The notes under the pieces were generated by a model. The model was not told where the DNA came from, did not search any database, and saw nothing but the letters and a program-made list of their open reading frames with translations. Positions 20,535 through 26,936 of a stretch of DNA of 64,000 nucleotides are shown here, in pieces. Source of the stretch: Alkalibacter rhizosphaerae (lineage in GTDB: Bacteria; Bacillota; Clostridia; Eubacteriales; Alkalibacteraceae); assembly GCF_017352215.1 (NCBI RefSeq), contig NZ_CP071444.1, forward strand, positions 1,674,001-1,738,000. Direction: 5' to 3'. The position numbers and the translations under genes are program-made. Position 1 is the first letter of the stretch. The number at the start of each line of letters is the position of its first letter.

Positions 20535-20607
20535 GTTTAGGTAGGGAAAACCTGCCAAACATGATAAAATAAAATGCATTAAATATACAGCTGGGAGGTT
20601 GGCTGAT

Positions 20608-21828
20608 ATGAAATTGGGTTTTGATCCCGAATTGCTGCGGTATCGAAGAGAAGATCCCAAAGTGACAGAACAAATGAAGAAAAAGCGACCGCCGCAAAGG
20701 GAGGTGCTGGACGGACAACACATGCGCAAGCTCTACGTGGAGCCCACGGCCAGATGCAACCTCCATTGTGACATGTGTCCAAGGCATACCTGGATCGATG
20801 AACCCATGGGAGACATGACCATGGAAGTCTATACCAAACTCCTGAAAGATGTGGAAGAAAACCGAGATTTGGAATGCATCTTTTTCGGCGGGGTGGCGGA
20901 ACCTATGAGCCATCCCAGGATCATCGAAATGGTCCGGTTGGCGAAGGAGCTGCACCTTTCCGTGGAATTGATCAGCAACGGCAGCATGCTCCATGAAAAG
21001 AACATAACAGCCTTGCTGGATGCGGGCTTGGACAAGCTGTGGATCTCCTTGGATTCCCAGCACATGGACAGCGAAGAAAAAACCACCGGTGCCAACGGGT
21101 TTCAGCGAACGAAAAAAATGCTGCAGACCTTTCAGCAGAAGAAGACCCAAAGCAATCCTTATGCTCAGCTGGGGATCTCCTTTGTCGCCACCAAGTCCAA
21201 CATCCACATGTTGCCGGAGGTGGTGGAAATGGCAAGGGTCTCCAATGTGGAGGAGGTCAAGGTCTCCAATCTGATCCCCTATACGGCAGACATGGAGTCA
21301 GAAGTGCTTTACCAAAAATCTCTGGCCTGCGATCTCCACAAGGAAGACCCCAACAACATGCCCTTCATGTTGTTGAATCTTCCCATTATGGATTTTGAAG
21401 ACATTCCTGCTGAAACGTTGAAGGATTTGATGCGGCAGAAGGTGGATCTGCAGATGGGAAAAGACAGGATCTTGCGGAGAAACCGATTTTGTCCCTTTAT
21501 AGAGTCCGACAGCGTTTTTGTCCGATGGGACGGAGAAGTAAGCCCCTGTTTGGCCCTGCTCCATACCAACAAGACCTACCTGCAGGGCATGGAAAGGACC
21601 ATTTACCATTGTTCTTACGGCAATGTGAAGGAAAGATCTTTCATGGAAATATGGACGGATCCGGAATATGCTGCCTTTCGCAACAAAGTGAAGGAGTTTG
21701 CCTTTTCTCCGTGTCCCACCTGCGGCCATTGCACCTATGCAGAAGAAAATATGGAAGATTGCTATGGCAATGAATTTCCCACCTGCGGCGCCTGCATGTG
21801 GGCGGAAGGTTTCGCCCAGTGTCCTTAA
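20608..21828 (+). CDS. radical SAM/SPASM protein, tungsten-enzyme maturase (Cmo-like) type
   Basis: A 406-residue radical SAM enzyme. The SAM cluster cysteines are C50, C54 and C57 (CNLHCDMC). The C-terminal half has a SPASM-like set of cysteines and ends with PTCGACMWAEGFAQCP, a tail I associate with the maturases found beside tungsten-containing aldehyde:ferredoxin oxidoreductases. No such oxidoreductase is in this window, so the assignment rests on sequence only. ATG 20608 follows GGGAGG by nine bases; a TTG at 20599 is too close. A 46-residue membrane protein and Maf follow. Confidence 0.75.
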   Translation: MKLGFDPELLRYRREDPKVTEQMKKKRPPQREVLDGQHMRKLYVEPTARCNLHCDMCPRHTWIDEPMGDMTMEVYTKLLKDVEENRDLECIFFGGVAEPMSHPRIIEMVRLAKELHLSVELISNGSMLHEKNITALLDAGLDKLWISLDSQHMDSEEKTTGANGFQRTKKMLQTFQQKKTQSNPYAQLGISFVATKSNIHMLPEVVEMARVSNVEEVKVSNLIPYTADMESEVLYQKSLACDLHKEDPNNMPFMLLNLPIMDFEDIPAETLKDLMRQKVDLQMGKDRILRRNRFCPFIESDSVFVRWDGEVSPCLALLHTNKTYLQGMERTIYHCSYGNVKERSFMEIWTDPEYAAFRNKVKEFAFSPCPTCGHCTYAEENMEDCYGNEFPTCGACMWAEGFAQCP

Positions 21829-22691: not shown

Positions 22692-24845
22692 TCATATCCG
22701 AGTAAGGGTATACTCCTTGTCTCGATGATCGCCCAGGATGCATTCACTGAGGGTGCGGTTGGCTTTCCAAGTCAATTTTATGGTTTGTATACTGGGATAG
22801 TTGGGGTCATCCGGCTGAAATGGTCCTGCGTCCAAAACGGCAGTGAGGTCGTCTTCGTCTTTGTCGCTGTCGCGGATGACAAAATAATCGATTTCCAACT
22901 TCAACTGGTTTCCGCCGACCCACCGTCTGGAGGTTTCTGTAAAAGCATATCCTTTGACTTCCGGTATGAGTTTGTTTAAAAATCCCCGATTCCAGGAAAT
23001 TCTCCAAGTGGTGCCGTCAAACAACCCGCCATTTTCTCTCCAACGTCCCATGATATTGCCTGGAAAATAGTGCTTGGCAAATAACTGGGCGATTTTATCC
23101 TTCAAATCATCGGATATGTGGTTGGTGTTGCAAAAGGTGGGAAAGTTCAGGTATTTGTCAAAAATCTTGTGAGGAGTGGGGCATCGGGCACCGAACCAGC
23201 TGTTGATCTCCCCTGTATTTGCTTTTTCTTCTTCATTGGCCCAATTGAAATAGATCTCGTGATAGTTTTCGATAGCTTCTCCAATGGTTGCCTGGATGTC
23301 GGAAACGGCTCCACGTTCCAGCTTTGCCAAAAGAAAAGCTACATCGCTCATGTACTGCATGAAGTAGGAATGGCGCTCATCCCAGGCTTTGGATTTGCTC
23401 TCGTCCCCATTCATTTCTTCAATGACATGGGCAAGTTCGTGGTAGATGGTCTGGACCTTTTTGAAAGATTCCAGGCTCTCGGGGATCTCATAAAGGTACA
23501 TGATGTTTTTTCCGGGGTGATATTTGGGGTCGCCGCTTTTGATCATCTCTATATCGGACAGATAATCAAGGGCACCCATGTAGGTATCTACGTTTCCCAG
23601 GATCAAATGCTGACCGGCCAGAGTTCCCAGGGGGTATTGGATGAATTGTCGAATCAAGCCCTTTAAATCGATGCGGGGAAGAAGAATGCCGTCCAGCTGG
23701 ATCTCTTCGATATTTTCCCCATTGCTGATGATCCGGATGAAAATCTCCAGTTTGTCCAACTCAGCTTCTGCCAATGCATTGGCATAGATCCGATAACGGG
23801 CGTAAGGACGTTTGGCATCGGCAGCTCCATCATCAGGCAGCAGTTCTGCAGTCAACTGTGCTTTTTCCACCACTTGTTGTGCTGCTTCATTGGTCAAATG
23901 ACCTTGTTGAGACTTGGCATAAAATTCGAATTGCAGGCTGTTGGACAAGTCTGCATCCGTTTGGAGATTTTTCTTTTTTTCATCATATTTCAATACTTTG
24001 ATGGGTAAAACAAAGGACTTCTCCGTCCGCTTGTTGGCTTCTTCGTCCTTGTAGCATTTAATGACGATGGGCTCCTTCAGCTGTTTTGGAACCAGGATGC
24101 ACTCGTTGAGAAACAAGGCGGAGTATGGTTGTTGTGCCACATAGCCGTTCATGTTGGCTTCCAGAGTATAATTCTTTTTCACGCGACAGCTGAACTTGTT
24201 GAAAAGATCTTTGGGCTCTGTGATGTTTTCGATCAGTTTGAGCTCCAATTTTCTTTCGGATTCCAGGACCTTTTCCGTTTCCAGCAAATTTGGATCGAAG
24301 GCATAATTGAACTGGACGGGGACGCTGCACTGGATGATCAACGGTTCTTCGTTTTTCAGGTTGGTGACAAAAACACCTTCCTGAGGATCGATGGTAAAAA
24401 TCGCCAATGAAAAATCCACGTTGGCTTTCATGACTTGTCCTTCGTATAGTGCAGAAATTTCAAAACGGATCTGCCCGGAAGAGTTCTTCAACAAAGAATC
24501 ATTGGTAGTGATGTAGTGATCAGATCCTGACGATTCCACCAAATCACAGCCGGTGACGCAGTCAATGGACGCTTCGGCGACGATGGTCGGTTCTCCCAGA
24601 ATCACGCCGTCTTCAATGTCTACCTTTACCACGTGGGCTCTCAATGGAACCAGATCGCCTGGAAGCACAAAACGGGAGCTGGGTGCTTCCACGACCAAGC
24701 GGACGTAGGATTTCTTCTTGGCTTGAAAATCCGTATTCAATACGTTGAGGATGGATGCGATCCCAACAGAACCGAGTGATGATACCAGCATGGTACCGAA
24801 ATTTGTGGAGCTGGAGTTGGTTACAAACCCTTTTCTGATTTTCAC
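22692..24845 (-). CDS. 717-residue HELAH protein with N-terminal SSS-type motif
   Basis: Start is GTG with GGAGG seven bases before it; the GTGA overlaps the radical SAM stop. Residues 1-16 (KIRKGFVTNSSSTNFG) match an N-terminal motif (K-I-R-x-G-F-V-x-N-S-S-S) seen on many otherwise unrelated bacterial proteins and never explained to my knowledge. Residues about 35-400 look like several beta-rich domains. HELAH at about 469-473 is a zincin-type zinc motif (IYHELAHVIEE), so the last third may be a metallopeptidase. No signal peptide in the usual form. Third gene of a coupled operon; possible substrate of the radical SAM enzyme. Confidence 0.8.
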   Translation of the reverse strand: MKIRKGFVTNSSSTNFGTMLVSSLGSVGIASILNVLNTDFQAKKKSYVRLVVEAPSSRFVLPGDLVPLRAHVVKVDIEDGVILGEPTIVAEASIDCVTGCDLVESSGSDHYITTNDSLLKNSSGQIRFEISALYEGQVMKANVDFSLAIFTIDPQEGVFVTNLKNEEPLIIQCSVPVQFNYAFDPNLLETEKVLESERKLELKLIENITEPKDLFNKFSCRVKKNYTLEANMNGYVAQQPYSALFLNECILVPKQLKEPIVIKCYKDEEANKRTEKSFVLPIKVLKYDEKKKNLQTDADLSNSLQFEFYAKSQQGHLTNEAAQQVVEKAQLTAELLPDDGAADAKRPYARYRIYANALAEAELDKLEIFIRIISNGENIEEIQLDGILLPRIDLKGLIRQFIQYPLGTLAGQHLILGNVDTYMGALDYLSDIEMIKSGDPKYHPGKNIMYLYEIPESLESFKKVQTIYHELAHVIEEMNGDESKSKAWDERHSYFMQYMSDVAFLLAKLERGAVSDIQATIGEAIENYHEIYFNWANEEEKANTGEINSWFGARCPTPHKIFDKYLNFPTFCNTNHISDDLKDKIAQLFAKHYFPGNIMGRWRENGGLFDGTTWRISWNRGFLNKLIPEVKGYAFTETSRRWVGGNQLKLEIDYFVIRDSDKDEDDLTAVLDAGPFQPDDPNYPSIQTIKLTWKANRTLSECILGDHRDKEYTLTRI

Positions 24846-25933
24846 TGTGCGGACCTCCTTATATCAGGTTTTATGTTATGGCATAGATTGATTTCCGGGC
24901 ATATGGGACATCCACCCATGCACATGCTACGATCGGTGCAATCGGGGCAGGCAGTCATGGCATGTCGGCGGAAGGAATCAAAGGCCTGGCCGAACCATCC
25001 TTCTTGGATGCCATGTTGTTTCAAATCCACATCATAGGATCCTGTTTGATCGAAGCTGCAGGGACGCATGACAAGGTCCGGACCAATGTAGGCGGAAAAT
25101 CTTCCAGATTCACAGGAATCAAAAGTTTCCGGAGAAACATCCTTGGCAAAAGTAACGATCCCTGGAACACAGCAGGAATCAAAGCCGGTTTTGGAAGCAA
25201 TGTCAGGCTGGGTCAGCAAATGAAAGAATTGCGGGACCCTGGGATCATTCTTTTGCAAGACTCGTTCCAGGGTGCCATAGCCCACCGGTTTATGCAGCAA
25301 AAATACCACCCGGTCAATGCCTGGAGGGATGGTGTTTGTGGAGAGCATGCGGATGGCCTCGTCAATGCTGTTGTTGCCCAGGACAAAATGAAGATTGGTC
25401 GTTACCCCTCTAGAAGCCAGCATATCGATTGCTCTTTCCATGTAGGTTGTTTTATAGTAGCTGACGGCAGCTGCGCCGCAATAGGCGGCAATGGCATCAG
25501 CGTTGTCGGATGTCAGTCCATAGCCGGATGTAGTAAGGTTGGGGACGATATCCGCTTCCCGGGTCAGGGACAAGATCTCATGAAACGATTCATGCATGTC
25601 CGGATCCCCCCGTCCTCCAAGCGCAACTTGGTAGACTTTGCCCCGACATTGTTGGATGATCTTGCTGTAGTCTTCCAGGGTCATGTTCGGTTGTTTTACG
25701 CTGGCACCCATTTGATAGCATTGGGTTCCGGCTTGCTGACAGCGGCCTTCCAGTCCATGGGTGCAATGACCCATGATCCCGATGTCCAGTAAATGGGGAA
25801 AGGAAGCCATAAAGGGATCAACGCCAGTGTCTTCTCCATGAGCATTCAATATTCCACTTCGAAAATAATCGCCGTTGGTTGTTTCAAATGAAGAAACAAA
25901 CCCATTTTGATCAAAAATCCTAAGAAGACTCAT
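24842..25933 (-). CDS. radical SAM/SPASM-type enzyme with unusual cysteine spacing
   Basis: A 363-residue protein. The probable SAM-cluster cysteines are C57, C65 and C72 (C-x7-C-x6-C, within GHCTHGLEGRCQQAG) rather than C-x3-C-x2-C. ALGGRGDPD near 128 matches the GGE-like SAM-binding strand, and VPNLTTSG the next. The C-terminus has CPDC, CMGGC and further cysteines that would bind auxiliary Fe-S clusters as in SPASM proteins, which modify peptides. AAAGGAG precedes ATG. It overlaps the membrane gene by 14 bases and the HELAH gene by four. Confidence 0.75.
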   Translation of the reverse strand: MSLLRIFDQNGFVSSFETTNGDYFRSGILNAHGEDTGVDPFMASFPHLLDIGIMGHCTHGLEGRCQQAGTQCYQMGASVKQPNMTLEDYSKIIQQCRGKVYQVALGGRGDPDMHESFHEILSLTREADIVPNLTTSGYGLTSDNADAIAAYCGAAAVSYYKTTYMERAIDMLASRGVTTNLHFVLGNNSIDEAIRMLSTNTIPPGIDRVVFLLHKPVGYGTLERVLQKNDPRVPQFFHLLTQPDIASKTGFDSCCVPGIVTFAKDVSPETFDSCESGRFSAYIGPDLVMRPCSFDQTGSYDVDLKQHGIQEGWFGQAFDSFRRHAMTACPDCTDRSMCMGGCPICPEINLCHNIKPDIRRSAQ

Positions 25934-26936
25934 GATGCTTCTCCTTTTTTGAAAATAAGGAAAGAACTGCTCCAGCGATCAACAATACCGATCCGATCCC
26001 GTAATTTGCCTGTTCGGCGATGTTGCCTGTGGCCACACTGAGCAATAACCCTGCTAGCAAACCCGTTTTTAGCAATGCCATCTTCTGAAAGGAATCATCC
26101 AGACCAGTTGGGATCAACTTAAGGAACAAGCTCAAGAATTTTCGAACCAGATAATCGATCAAGGCTGGCAATGGACCGCTCAATCCTGCAAAAACCACAA
26201 AAGCCAGAAGAATAGGCAGAAAGCTCTTGTCAAATTTACCGTTTCTTGTGATCAAGTTGCTGAAAATGAAAGCAAATCCGGATCCAAGCAAAACTAGACC
26301 CAAATGATGCAGTTTTCCCGGAATTTGGTGAAGACTGTCCTTGAATACCATCCAGTTATTGGAGTAGGGGATGGAAAACTTTCTGTTTTTCTTCATTATG
26401 CCGGCAAATATGGGAAGGATGATGCCGGACAAAGAAAGGATATACAAGGGTTTTCCAACAAAAGCGGCGATATAACCAGCCAAAGTAGGAGGCATGAAAT
26501 CTCCGAAACTCATGGGACCGTTTCGAGTTGCCGTAATGTATCGAAGGACCGAGCCCAAGGGTTCCCGATTGAAAAAGGATAAGATGGAACCGATGACAGG
26601 AATTCGATATGTGGAAAAGGAATAATCCACTCCCAAAATCAACCAAAGAAAAAACAGGATGGACAACAAGATTCCGTTGCGTTTGAAATAAGAAAGGAAT
26701 GCATCCTTGATGCCGTTTGGATACCTGGTTTTTATGTTTTGGGTGTCCAAGTCAGGAGCACTTTCAAAATCGTAGGTTTCCTGTTCCATACTGCGAGAAG
26801 ACTCAGTAATCTCGCTTTGGTGCATTTGGGAAATGTCCACTTCTTCGCCAAAATCGCCGATTGTGATGGGAATGTTTTCATAATAGATCACATCTTCGAT
26901 GGGATCGTTCCGATTGGTTCTTCCGTTTTTGCCCAT
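25920..26936 (-). CDS. polytopic membrane protein, first gene of the radical SAM operon
   Basis: A 338-residue protein. About 90 N-terminal residues are hydrophilic and acidic, then come roughly seven hydrophobic segments (from LLSILFFLWLILG onward) and a short basic/His tail. No transporter signature is visible to me. AAGGCGGTGG precedes ATG 26936. It is translationally coupled with the radical SAM gene, so a role in anchoring or exporting the modified product is possible. Name withheld because no family is recognised. Confidence 0.7.
   Translation of the reverse strand: MGKNGRTNRNDPIEDVIYYENIPITIGDFGEEVDISQMHQSEITESSRSMEQETYDFESAPDLDTQNIKTRYPNGIKDAFLSYFKRNGILLSILFFLWLILGVDYSFSTYRIPVIGSILSFFNREPLGSVLRYITATRNGPMSFGDFMPPTLAGYIAAFVGKPLYILSLSGIILPIFAGIMKKNRKFSIPYSNNWMVFKDSLHQIPGKLHHLGLVLLGSGFAFIFSNLITRNGKFDKSFLPILLAFVVFAGLSGPLPALIDYLVRKFLSLFLKLIPTGLDDSFQKMALLKTGLLAGLLLSVATGNIAEQANYGIGSVLLIAGAVLSLFSKKEKHHESS

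Follow-up and report, generated by a model that had tools for sequence, protein, structure and literature searches.

The closest described systems are the radical SAM/SPASM maturases of ribosomally synthesized and post-translationally modified peptides (RiPPs), among them SuiB, SkfB, CteB, PqqE and ChlB. The enzyme analyzed here resembles them in its fold over nearly the whole length, in its auxiliary-cluster cysteines and in the position of its gene beside a presumed substrate. RiPP precursors are short and consist of a leader and a variable core, whereas substrates of the type encoded in the window (the whole stretch of 64,000 nucleotides of Alkalibacter rhizosphaerae DNA that was analyzed) are full-size proteins whose conserved part is N-terminal, and a single enzyme may stand beside as many as 8 unrelated substrates. 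The short leader-core precursor of RiPP systems is not found, the tagged proteins having unrelated bodies of folded size. The anaerobic sulfatase-maturating enzyme anSME, also a radical SAM/SPASM enzyme (Z 20.7 to the model of the window enzyme), acts on a short Ser or Cys motif in a full-size protein. It serves one protein family through an internal motif, whereas the motif described here is N-terminal and is carried by about 95 groups of protein bodies. Prokaryotic viperin (pVip) gives a weak profile match to the enzyme (E 6.6e-4) and shares the radical SAM core (Z 18.6), but the window enzyme differs from it in having an auxiliary cluster region, a linkage to a protein tag and better matches to peptide maturases.

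A fourth comparison is with the AVAST/STAND NTPase defence loci, since one cellular context of the enzyme pairs an Avs2-like NTPase with a tagged protein; the window operon, in contrast, is not of the NTPase type. No described AVAST type with a radical SAM enzyme or such a tag was found in the open-access full text searched, and in the same literature both the tag and the enzyme family are undescribed. One paper on conflict systems (PMC7159879) mentions a radical SAM effector, with a peptide as its likely target, in another setting, that of vWA-MoxR. Because the resemblance of the enzyme family is clear, we place the system within radical SAM maturation of ribosomal products. It is set apart from known maturation by a portable tag on full-size, unrelated proteins.

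We propose, with considerable confidence, that the enzyme is a radical SAM enzyme of the SPASM/Twitch type dedicated to protein modification, and that the N-terminal segment M-K-[IVF]-[RK]-x-D-[FY]-[VI]-T-N-S-S-S-[ST]-[SN]-[FY] is a portable tag which it recognizes and chemically alters; no modification has been observed, and linkage is not proof of catalysis. Probably this is a general and undescribed modification system, in which one enzyme family makes the same change on a portable N-terminal tag shared by full-size proteins of many unrelated kinds. It would operate in bacteria, in archaea and in large phages, and its users would include envelope operons of the host, conflict cassettes with a STAND NTPase, loci for metal uptake and accessory proteins of phages. 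A testable explanation would thereby be gained for an N-terminal sequence that is strongly conserved on many proteins without annotation. If the proposal is true, this would be the first described radical SAM enzyme acting on a tag shared by about 100 unrelated protein groups, as far as open-access full text and four profile libraries can tell. Confirmation would establish a protein modification that is new and is common among bacteria of the gut and the large phages that infect them. It would also offer a candidate connection between a set of phage genes and host conflict cassettes of the STAND type, as well as a peptide tag that can be transferred genetically for the enzymatic labelling of proteins.

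The window operon comprises three genes, all on the minus strand between 26936 and 22692, with the overlaps of 14 and 4 bases that the initial annotation had reported. Its features are as follows.

25920..26936, minus strand: membrane protein of 338 amino acids with about 6 hydrophobic segments; first gene of the operon
24842..25933, minus strand: radical SAM/SPASM-type enzyme of 363 amino acids, the proposed modifying enzyme (homology and AF2 model)
25718..25765, minus strand: radical SAM cluster loop C57-X7-C65-X6-C72, an extended form of CX3CX2C
24881..25114, minus strand: SPASM-like auxiliary cluster region with C274, C292, CX2CX5CX3C (329/332/338/342), C345 and C351
24854..24860, minus strand: AAGGAGG ribosome-binding site of the tagged gene
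22692..24845, minus strand: tagged protein of 717 amino acids, with N-terminal tag, hydrophobic stretch, beta-rich body and zincin-like helical part
24798..24845, minus strand: the tag, residues 1-16 of the 717-residue protein, MKIRKGFVTNSSSTNF
24738..24794, minus strand: hydrophobic segment right behind the tag, residues 18-36, KD 1.7
23427..23441, minus strand: HELAH, residues 469-473 of the 717-residue protein

The last protein does open with the SSS-type motif noted previously, its N-terminus reading MKIRKGFVTNSSSTNF, and the AAGGAGG site upstream supports the GTG start of the gene at the tag. Also borne out were the atypical character of the radical SAM enzyme, whose cluster loop is CX7CX6C instead of the canonical CX3CX2C, its SPASM-like cysteines (274, 292 and CX2CX5CX3C at 329-342) and the zincin motif of the last protein (HELAH at residues 469-473). 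A profile search found no curated family covering any of the three genes. The A. rhizosphaerae genome (2.45 Mb, one contig) has a single copy of the enzyme and, by DNA pattern search, one tag gene. The enzyme is absent from the two congeners searched, so the operon is accessory. In other Bacillota loci (L243, L079, L290, L341 and L342) a homologue of the membrane protein is encoded immediately upstream of the same enzyme. About 1 kb beyond the operon lies a second SPASM-type radical SAM gene (20599-21825, plus strand), closest to the tungsten cofactor oxidoreductase maturase family TIGR04317 (298.5 bits, below the cut-off of 380).

The window enzyme matches SPASM and several families of radical SAM maturases only below their thresholds, scoring 16.2 bits against a cut-off of 21.5 for PF13186 and 19.7 against 27 for TIGR04085; its homologues L079 (28.6 bits) and L263 (32.4 bits) exceed the latter cut-off. 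Full-length alignment of 44 representatives identified invariant residues that include G21, D50, C57, C72, Y73, D252, C254, C274, C292 and C332, with C254 situated just before the SPASM-like region. Among 216 full-length homologues the cluster loop is CX3CX2C in 114 and CX7CX6C, the window form, in 85; as homologues are split between both, the longer loop is a lineage variant within one family. The second half of the SPASM region, CX2CX5CX3C, is present in the window enzyme (C329-x2-C332-x5-C338-x3-C342) and in most cellular homologues, and is reduced in the phage clade with the canonical loop, which would leave that clade a single auxiliary-cluster site. An AF2 model (pLDDT 94, pTM 0.91) predicts the radical SAM TIM-barrel fold, preceded by about 45 residues. 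Its best structural match is SuiB (Z 25.6, rmsd 3.5, 318 residues aligned), followed by SkfB (Z 23.1), anSME (20.7), PqqE (20.6), and CteB and ChlB (about 20); viperin (18.6) and MoaA (17.1) rank behind these peptide- and protein-modifying enzymes. A profile search of the PDB agrees with this ranking, peptide maturases being the best matches.

Tag and enzyme were searched for independently in 398 genomes sampled evenly across the phylum, with an enzyme threshold of E <= 1e-20. The enzyme was found in 10 genomes. The tag was sought by a DNA pattern that took no account of the enzyme. This gave 13 hits, three of them chance strings, and the 10 genomes with true tags are the same 10 that encode the enzyme, with the tag gene adjoining it (Fisher p 4e-20). 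The reversed pattern, used as a control, gave one match in the 398 genomes. A wider scan of cellular genomes for the motif, limited to one genome per species, found at least 118 loci, of which 116 encode the true motif. Among the matches listed, the enzyme lies on the same fragment (within 8 kb) in 95 of the 116, at a median distance of 376 bp from the tag, and 128 of 131 tags share its strand. In 16 of the remaining 21 listed loci the enzyme is encoded elsewhere in the genome, bringing the total to 111 of 116; the initial annotation had proposed to ask whether the motif always adjoins this type of enzyme, and these counts uphold the association. The outcome named there as refuting, a motif that mostly lacks such a neighbour, did not occur among the loci listed. 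For 5 of the 116 listed loci no enzyme was detected in the genome, and those with titles shown are metagenome bins. At L221 (7637-7674), in a genome without a detected enzyme, the tag gene reads MKIRTDFVTNSSSSSFIIA and then stops shortly after the tag, and is probably a decaying copy.

Searches that start from the enzyme likewise lead to the motif, whether in bacteria, on plasmids or in phages. In viral contigs such a search found at least 69 loci; 56 of the 69 listed carry 1-8 tag genes on the fragment and 13 carry none, one of which had a tag elsewhere on the record. The converse scan of viral sequences, for the motif, gave at least 117 tag loci, with the enzyme on the fragment in 67 of the 117 listed. 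A further 44 tag-bearing viral records were searched whole: the enzyme was found in 24 and not in 20, mostly fragments. On rhizobial and Rhodobacter (alphaproteobacterial) plasmids, a gene starting MKIK-x-DFVSNSSSTSFVYI directly precedes the enzyme. The pair is distributed over Bacillota, Actinomycetota, Bacteroidota, Pseudomonadota, Myxococcota, Campylobacterota, Acidobacteriota, Chloroflexota, candidate phyla, archaea and large phages; Fusibacter tunisiensis and Lacrimispora amygdalina are among the carriers. Many of the loci are metagenome bins or viral fragments, for which absence on the fragment is not absence, and prophages may be present among the loci counted as cellular: L270 clusters with the enzymes of phages, and L275 and L297 share phage tagged families.

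The 472 distinct tagged proteins among the matches listed share, at the N-terminus, the consensus M-K-[IVF]-[RK]-x-D-[FY]-[VI]-T-N-S-S-S-[STA]-[SNA]-[FY]-[IVL]-[IVL]. Since motif-first scans fix part of this consensus and bias it towards the search pattern, it was derived again from enzyme-first loci only, with a loose expression; these tags read TNSSS in 176 cases, SNSSS in 4, and nothing else. With the tag removed, the bodies of the 472 listed proteins form 95 BLAST clusters (49 singletons), in keeping with the earlier remark that the motif recurs on otherwise unrelated proteins. They range from 61 to 717 amino acids, with a median of 138 (among the matches listed). For the invariant serines, AGY and TCN codons are used with similar frequency (262 AGY and 210 TCN at S11), and constraint therefore acts on the protein; on this codon use, a DNA or RNA element as the nature of the tag was rejected. 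Recognized domains among the tagged bodies include BspA-type leucine-rich repeats and BRCT, but most bodies have none. BspA-type repeats and BRCT were seen in tagged or neighbouring proteins of gut and rumen bacteria at L311, L326 and L305. No tag family exists in Pfam, NCBIfam, PHROGs or PADLOC except phrog_7397, of unknown function, which was matched by 16 of 108 tagged proteins.

The linkage thus supports the suggestion of the initial annotation that the SSS segment of a large protein serves the adjacent enzyme as a leader or as a site of modification; the modification itself is inferred. In the mechanism we envisage, the enzyme would bind the basic K2/[RK]4 end of the tag, and its 5'-deoxyadenosyl radical would abstract hydrogen from one of the carbons of the invariant T-N-S-S-S core, which is flanked by F7 and F/Y16. 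The outcome might be oxidation of one residue, or a cross-link inside the segment 6-16; both residue and chemistry are undetermined. The mature N-terminus probably still carries the tag, since neither a protease nor an exporter is conserved alongside it.

An unlikely but not negligible alternative is that the tag serves for docking or assembly, binding the enzyme or other tagged proteins, while the enzyme modifies a small molecule, a tRNA or a separate peptide. Small-molecule enzymes of the same fold (BtrN and viperin) do appear in the structural ranking, and some tag loci lack an adjacent enzyme. The best structural and sequence matches are nevertheless peptide maturases, and docking alone would not need T-N-S-S-S to be kept at nearly 100% on more than 90 unrelated proteins. 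Nor was any other substrate gene common to the tag-enzyme loci examined.

The body of the window protein bears on a second alternative, that the tag is a leader which is cleaved off, through processing by the enzyme or by the window zincin, as in classical RiPP or export pathways. The protein does carry HELAH and a hydrophobic stretch behind the tag, and an EspG-like gene occurs in a related operon. Three homologous bodies were found, and HExxH (as HELxH) is invariant in the 4 homologues together with the downstream E490-x-H492-x-Y494-F495. No Pfam peptidase scored above its cut-off for the 717-residue protein, and the structure model (pLDDT 55) is too poor for the fold to be judged. At L341 a protein of 963 amino acids with a signal peptide and no tag makes up the zincin-like body on its own, and the tag is found on its 477-residue neighbour; because this locus splits the two, body and tag are separate modules, with the zincin outside the tag chemistry. 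Outside the window family HExxH occurs in only 4 of the 472 listed tagged proteins, at the C-terminal end. A hydrophobic stretch is present in 5 of the 472 listed, small tagged proteins having none. As no protease is common to the loci either, cleavage of the tag as a leader seems very unlikely. The zincin as the point of the whole system was also considered and rejected, since most tagged proteins lack HExxH and the zincin body of L340 and L341 has a signal peptide and no tag.

A hydrophobic segment like that of the window is found in tagged proteins of 466-491 amino acids from related operons. From this stretch and from HELxH we infer that the tagged protein of the window is a membrane-associated, zincin-like envelope protein made together with its membrane partner. 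The gene following the 477-503 residue tagged gene at L342 (7608-8546) and L343 (5366-6337) gives a borderline match to EspG (E 9e-6 and 0.018, respectively), a chaperone of type VII secretion.

Among phages, tag and enzyme vary together. Tags beside long-loop enzymes have Arg4 in 99% of 162 cases and Ser directly after SSS in 98%; tags beside canonical-loop enzymes have Lys4 in 98% of 128, and the position after SSS is relaxed. One body family is present in both phage clades, with Arg4 in 12 of 12 tags in the former versus Lys4 in 27 of 29 in the latter. Cellular canonical-loop enzymes pair with either residue, and in the enzyme tree the loop types largely form separate clades; the co-variation must therefore reflect common descent in part. 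It still fits enzyme-substrate pairing better than independent inheritance. The notion that tag and enzyme are mere passengers co-spreading in mobile cassettes, linked by common transfer and not by chemistry, can draw on the accessory nature of the operon (two congeners without the enzyme) and on relatives on plasmids and phages, but it can be dismissed almost outright, since as many as 8 unrelated bodies beside a single enzyme carry the tag, and since the tag sits at the exact N-terminus under protein-level selection and co-varies with the enzyme clade inside one body family.

The genomic contexts fall into four types. The first is that of the window: membrane protein, enzyme and large tagged protein. 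The second comprises a NACHT/STAND-like NTPase, a protein of 120-134 amino acids, a tagged protein of about 132 amino acids and the enzyme, in the following loci.

L346, 1797-7716; L345, 6910-10970; L075-L078; L227, L232 and L291: four-gene NTPase cassettes

The tagged family of about 132 amino acids was listed at 50 cellular loci, with the small protein on the fragment in 31 and the NTPase in 22. The N-terminal part of the NTPase is exchangeable, being SMEK, trypsin-like or membrane in type, and the Avs2 match reaches 1e-20. The four-gene arrangement looks like an undescribed defence cassette. At L346 the cassette is preceded by a metallo-beta-lactamase gene. In the third context, FecCD-type ABC transporter genes lie beside another tagged family at 7 loci (L085-L087, L286, L308, L313 and L314), hinting at metal or cofactor uptake. 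The fourth is that of large phages, in which a tail sheath gene on the opposite strand is common to 52 phage loci, and baseplate and tube-like genes lie in many, also on the opposite strand. Taken together, the contexts suggest that tagged proteins belong to complexes, envelope structures or conflict systems.

Two further phage observations were made. Upstream of the enzyme in L005 (3723-4916) and L006 (3708-4907) is a phage gene whose L005 copy matches phrog_1211, of the adenylosuccinate synthetase type; these phages may use modified purines. Cronobacter phage GAP161 (L074, 5917-7086) encodes a distant relative of the enzyme with 27% identity and a CX7CX2C loop. No such tag was found near this relative in pseudotevenvirus-like phages, of which at least 166 records encode it, nearly all of them enterobacterial.
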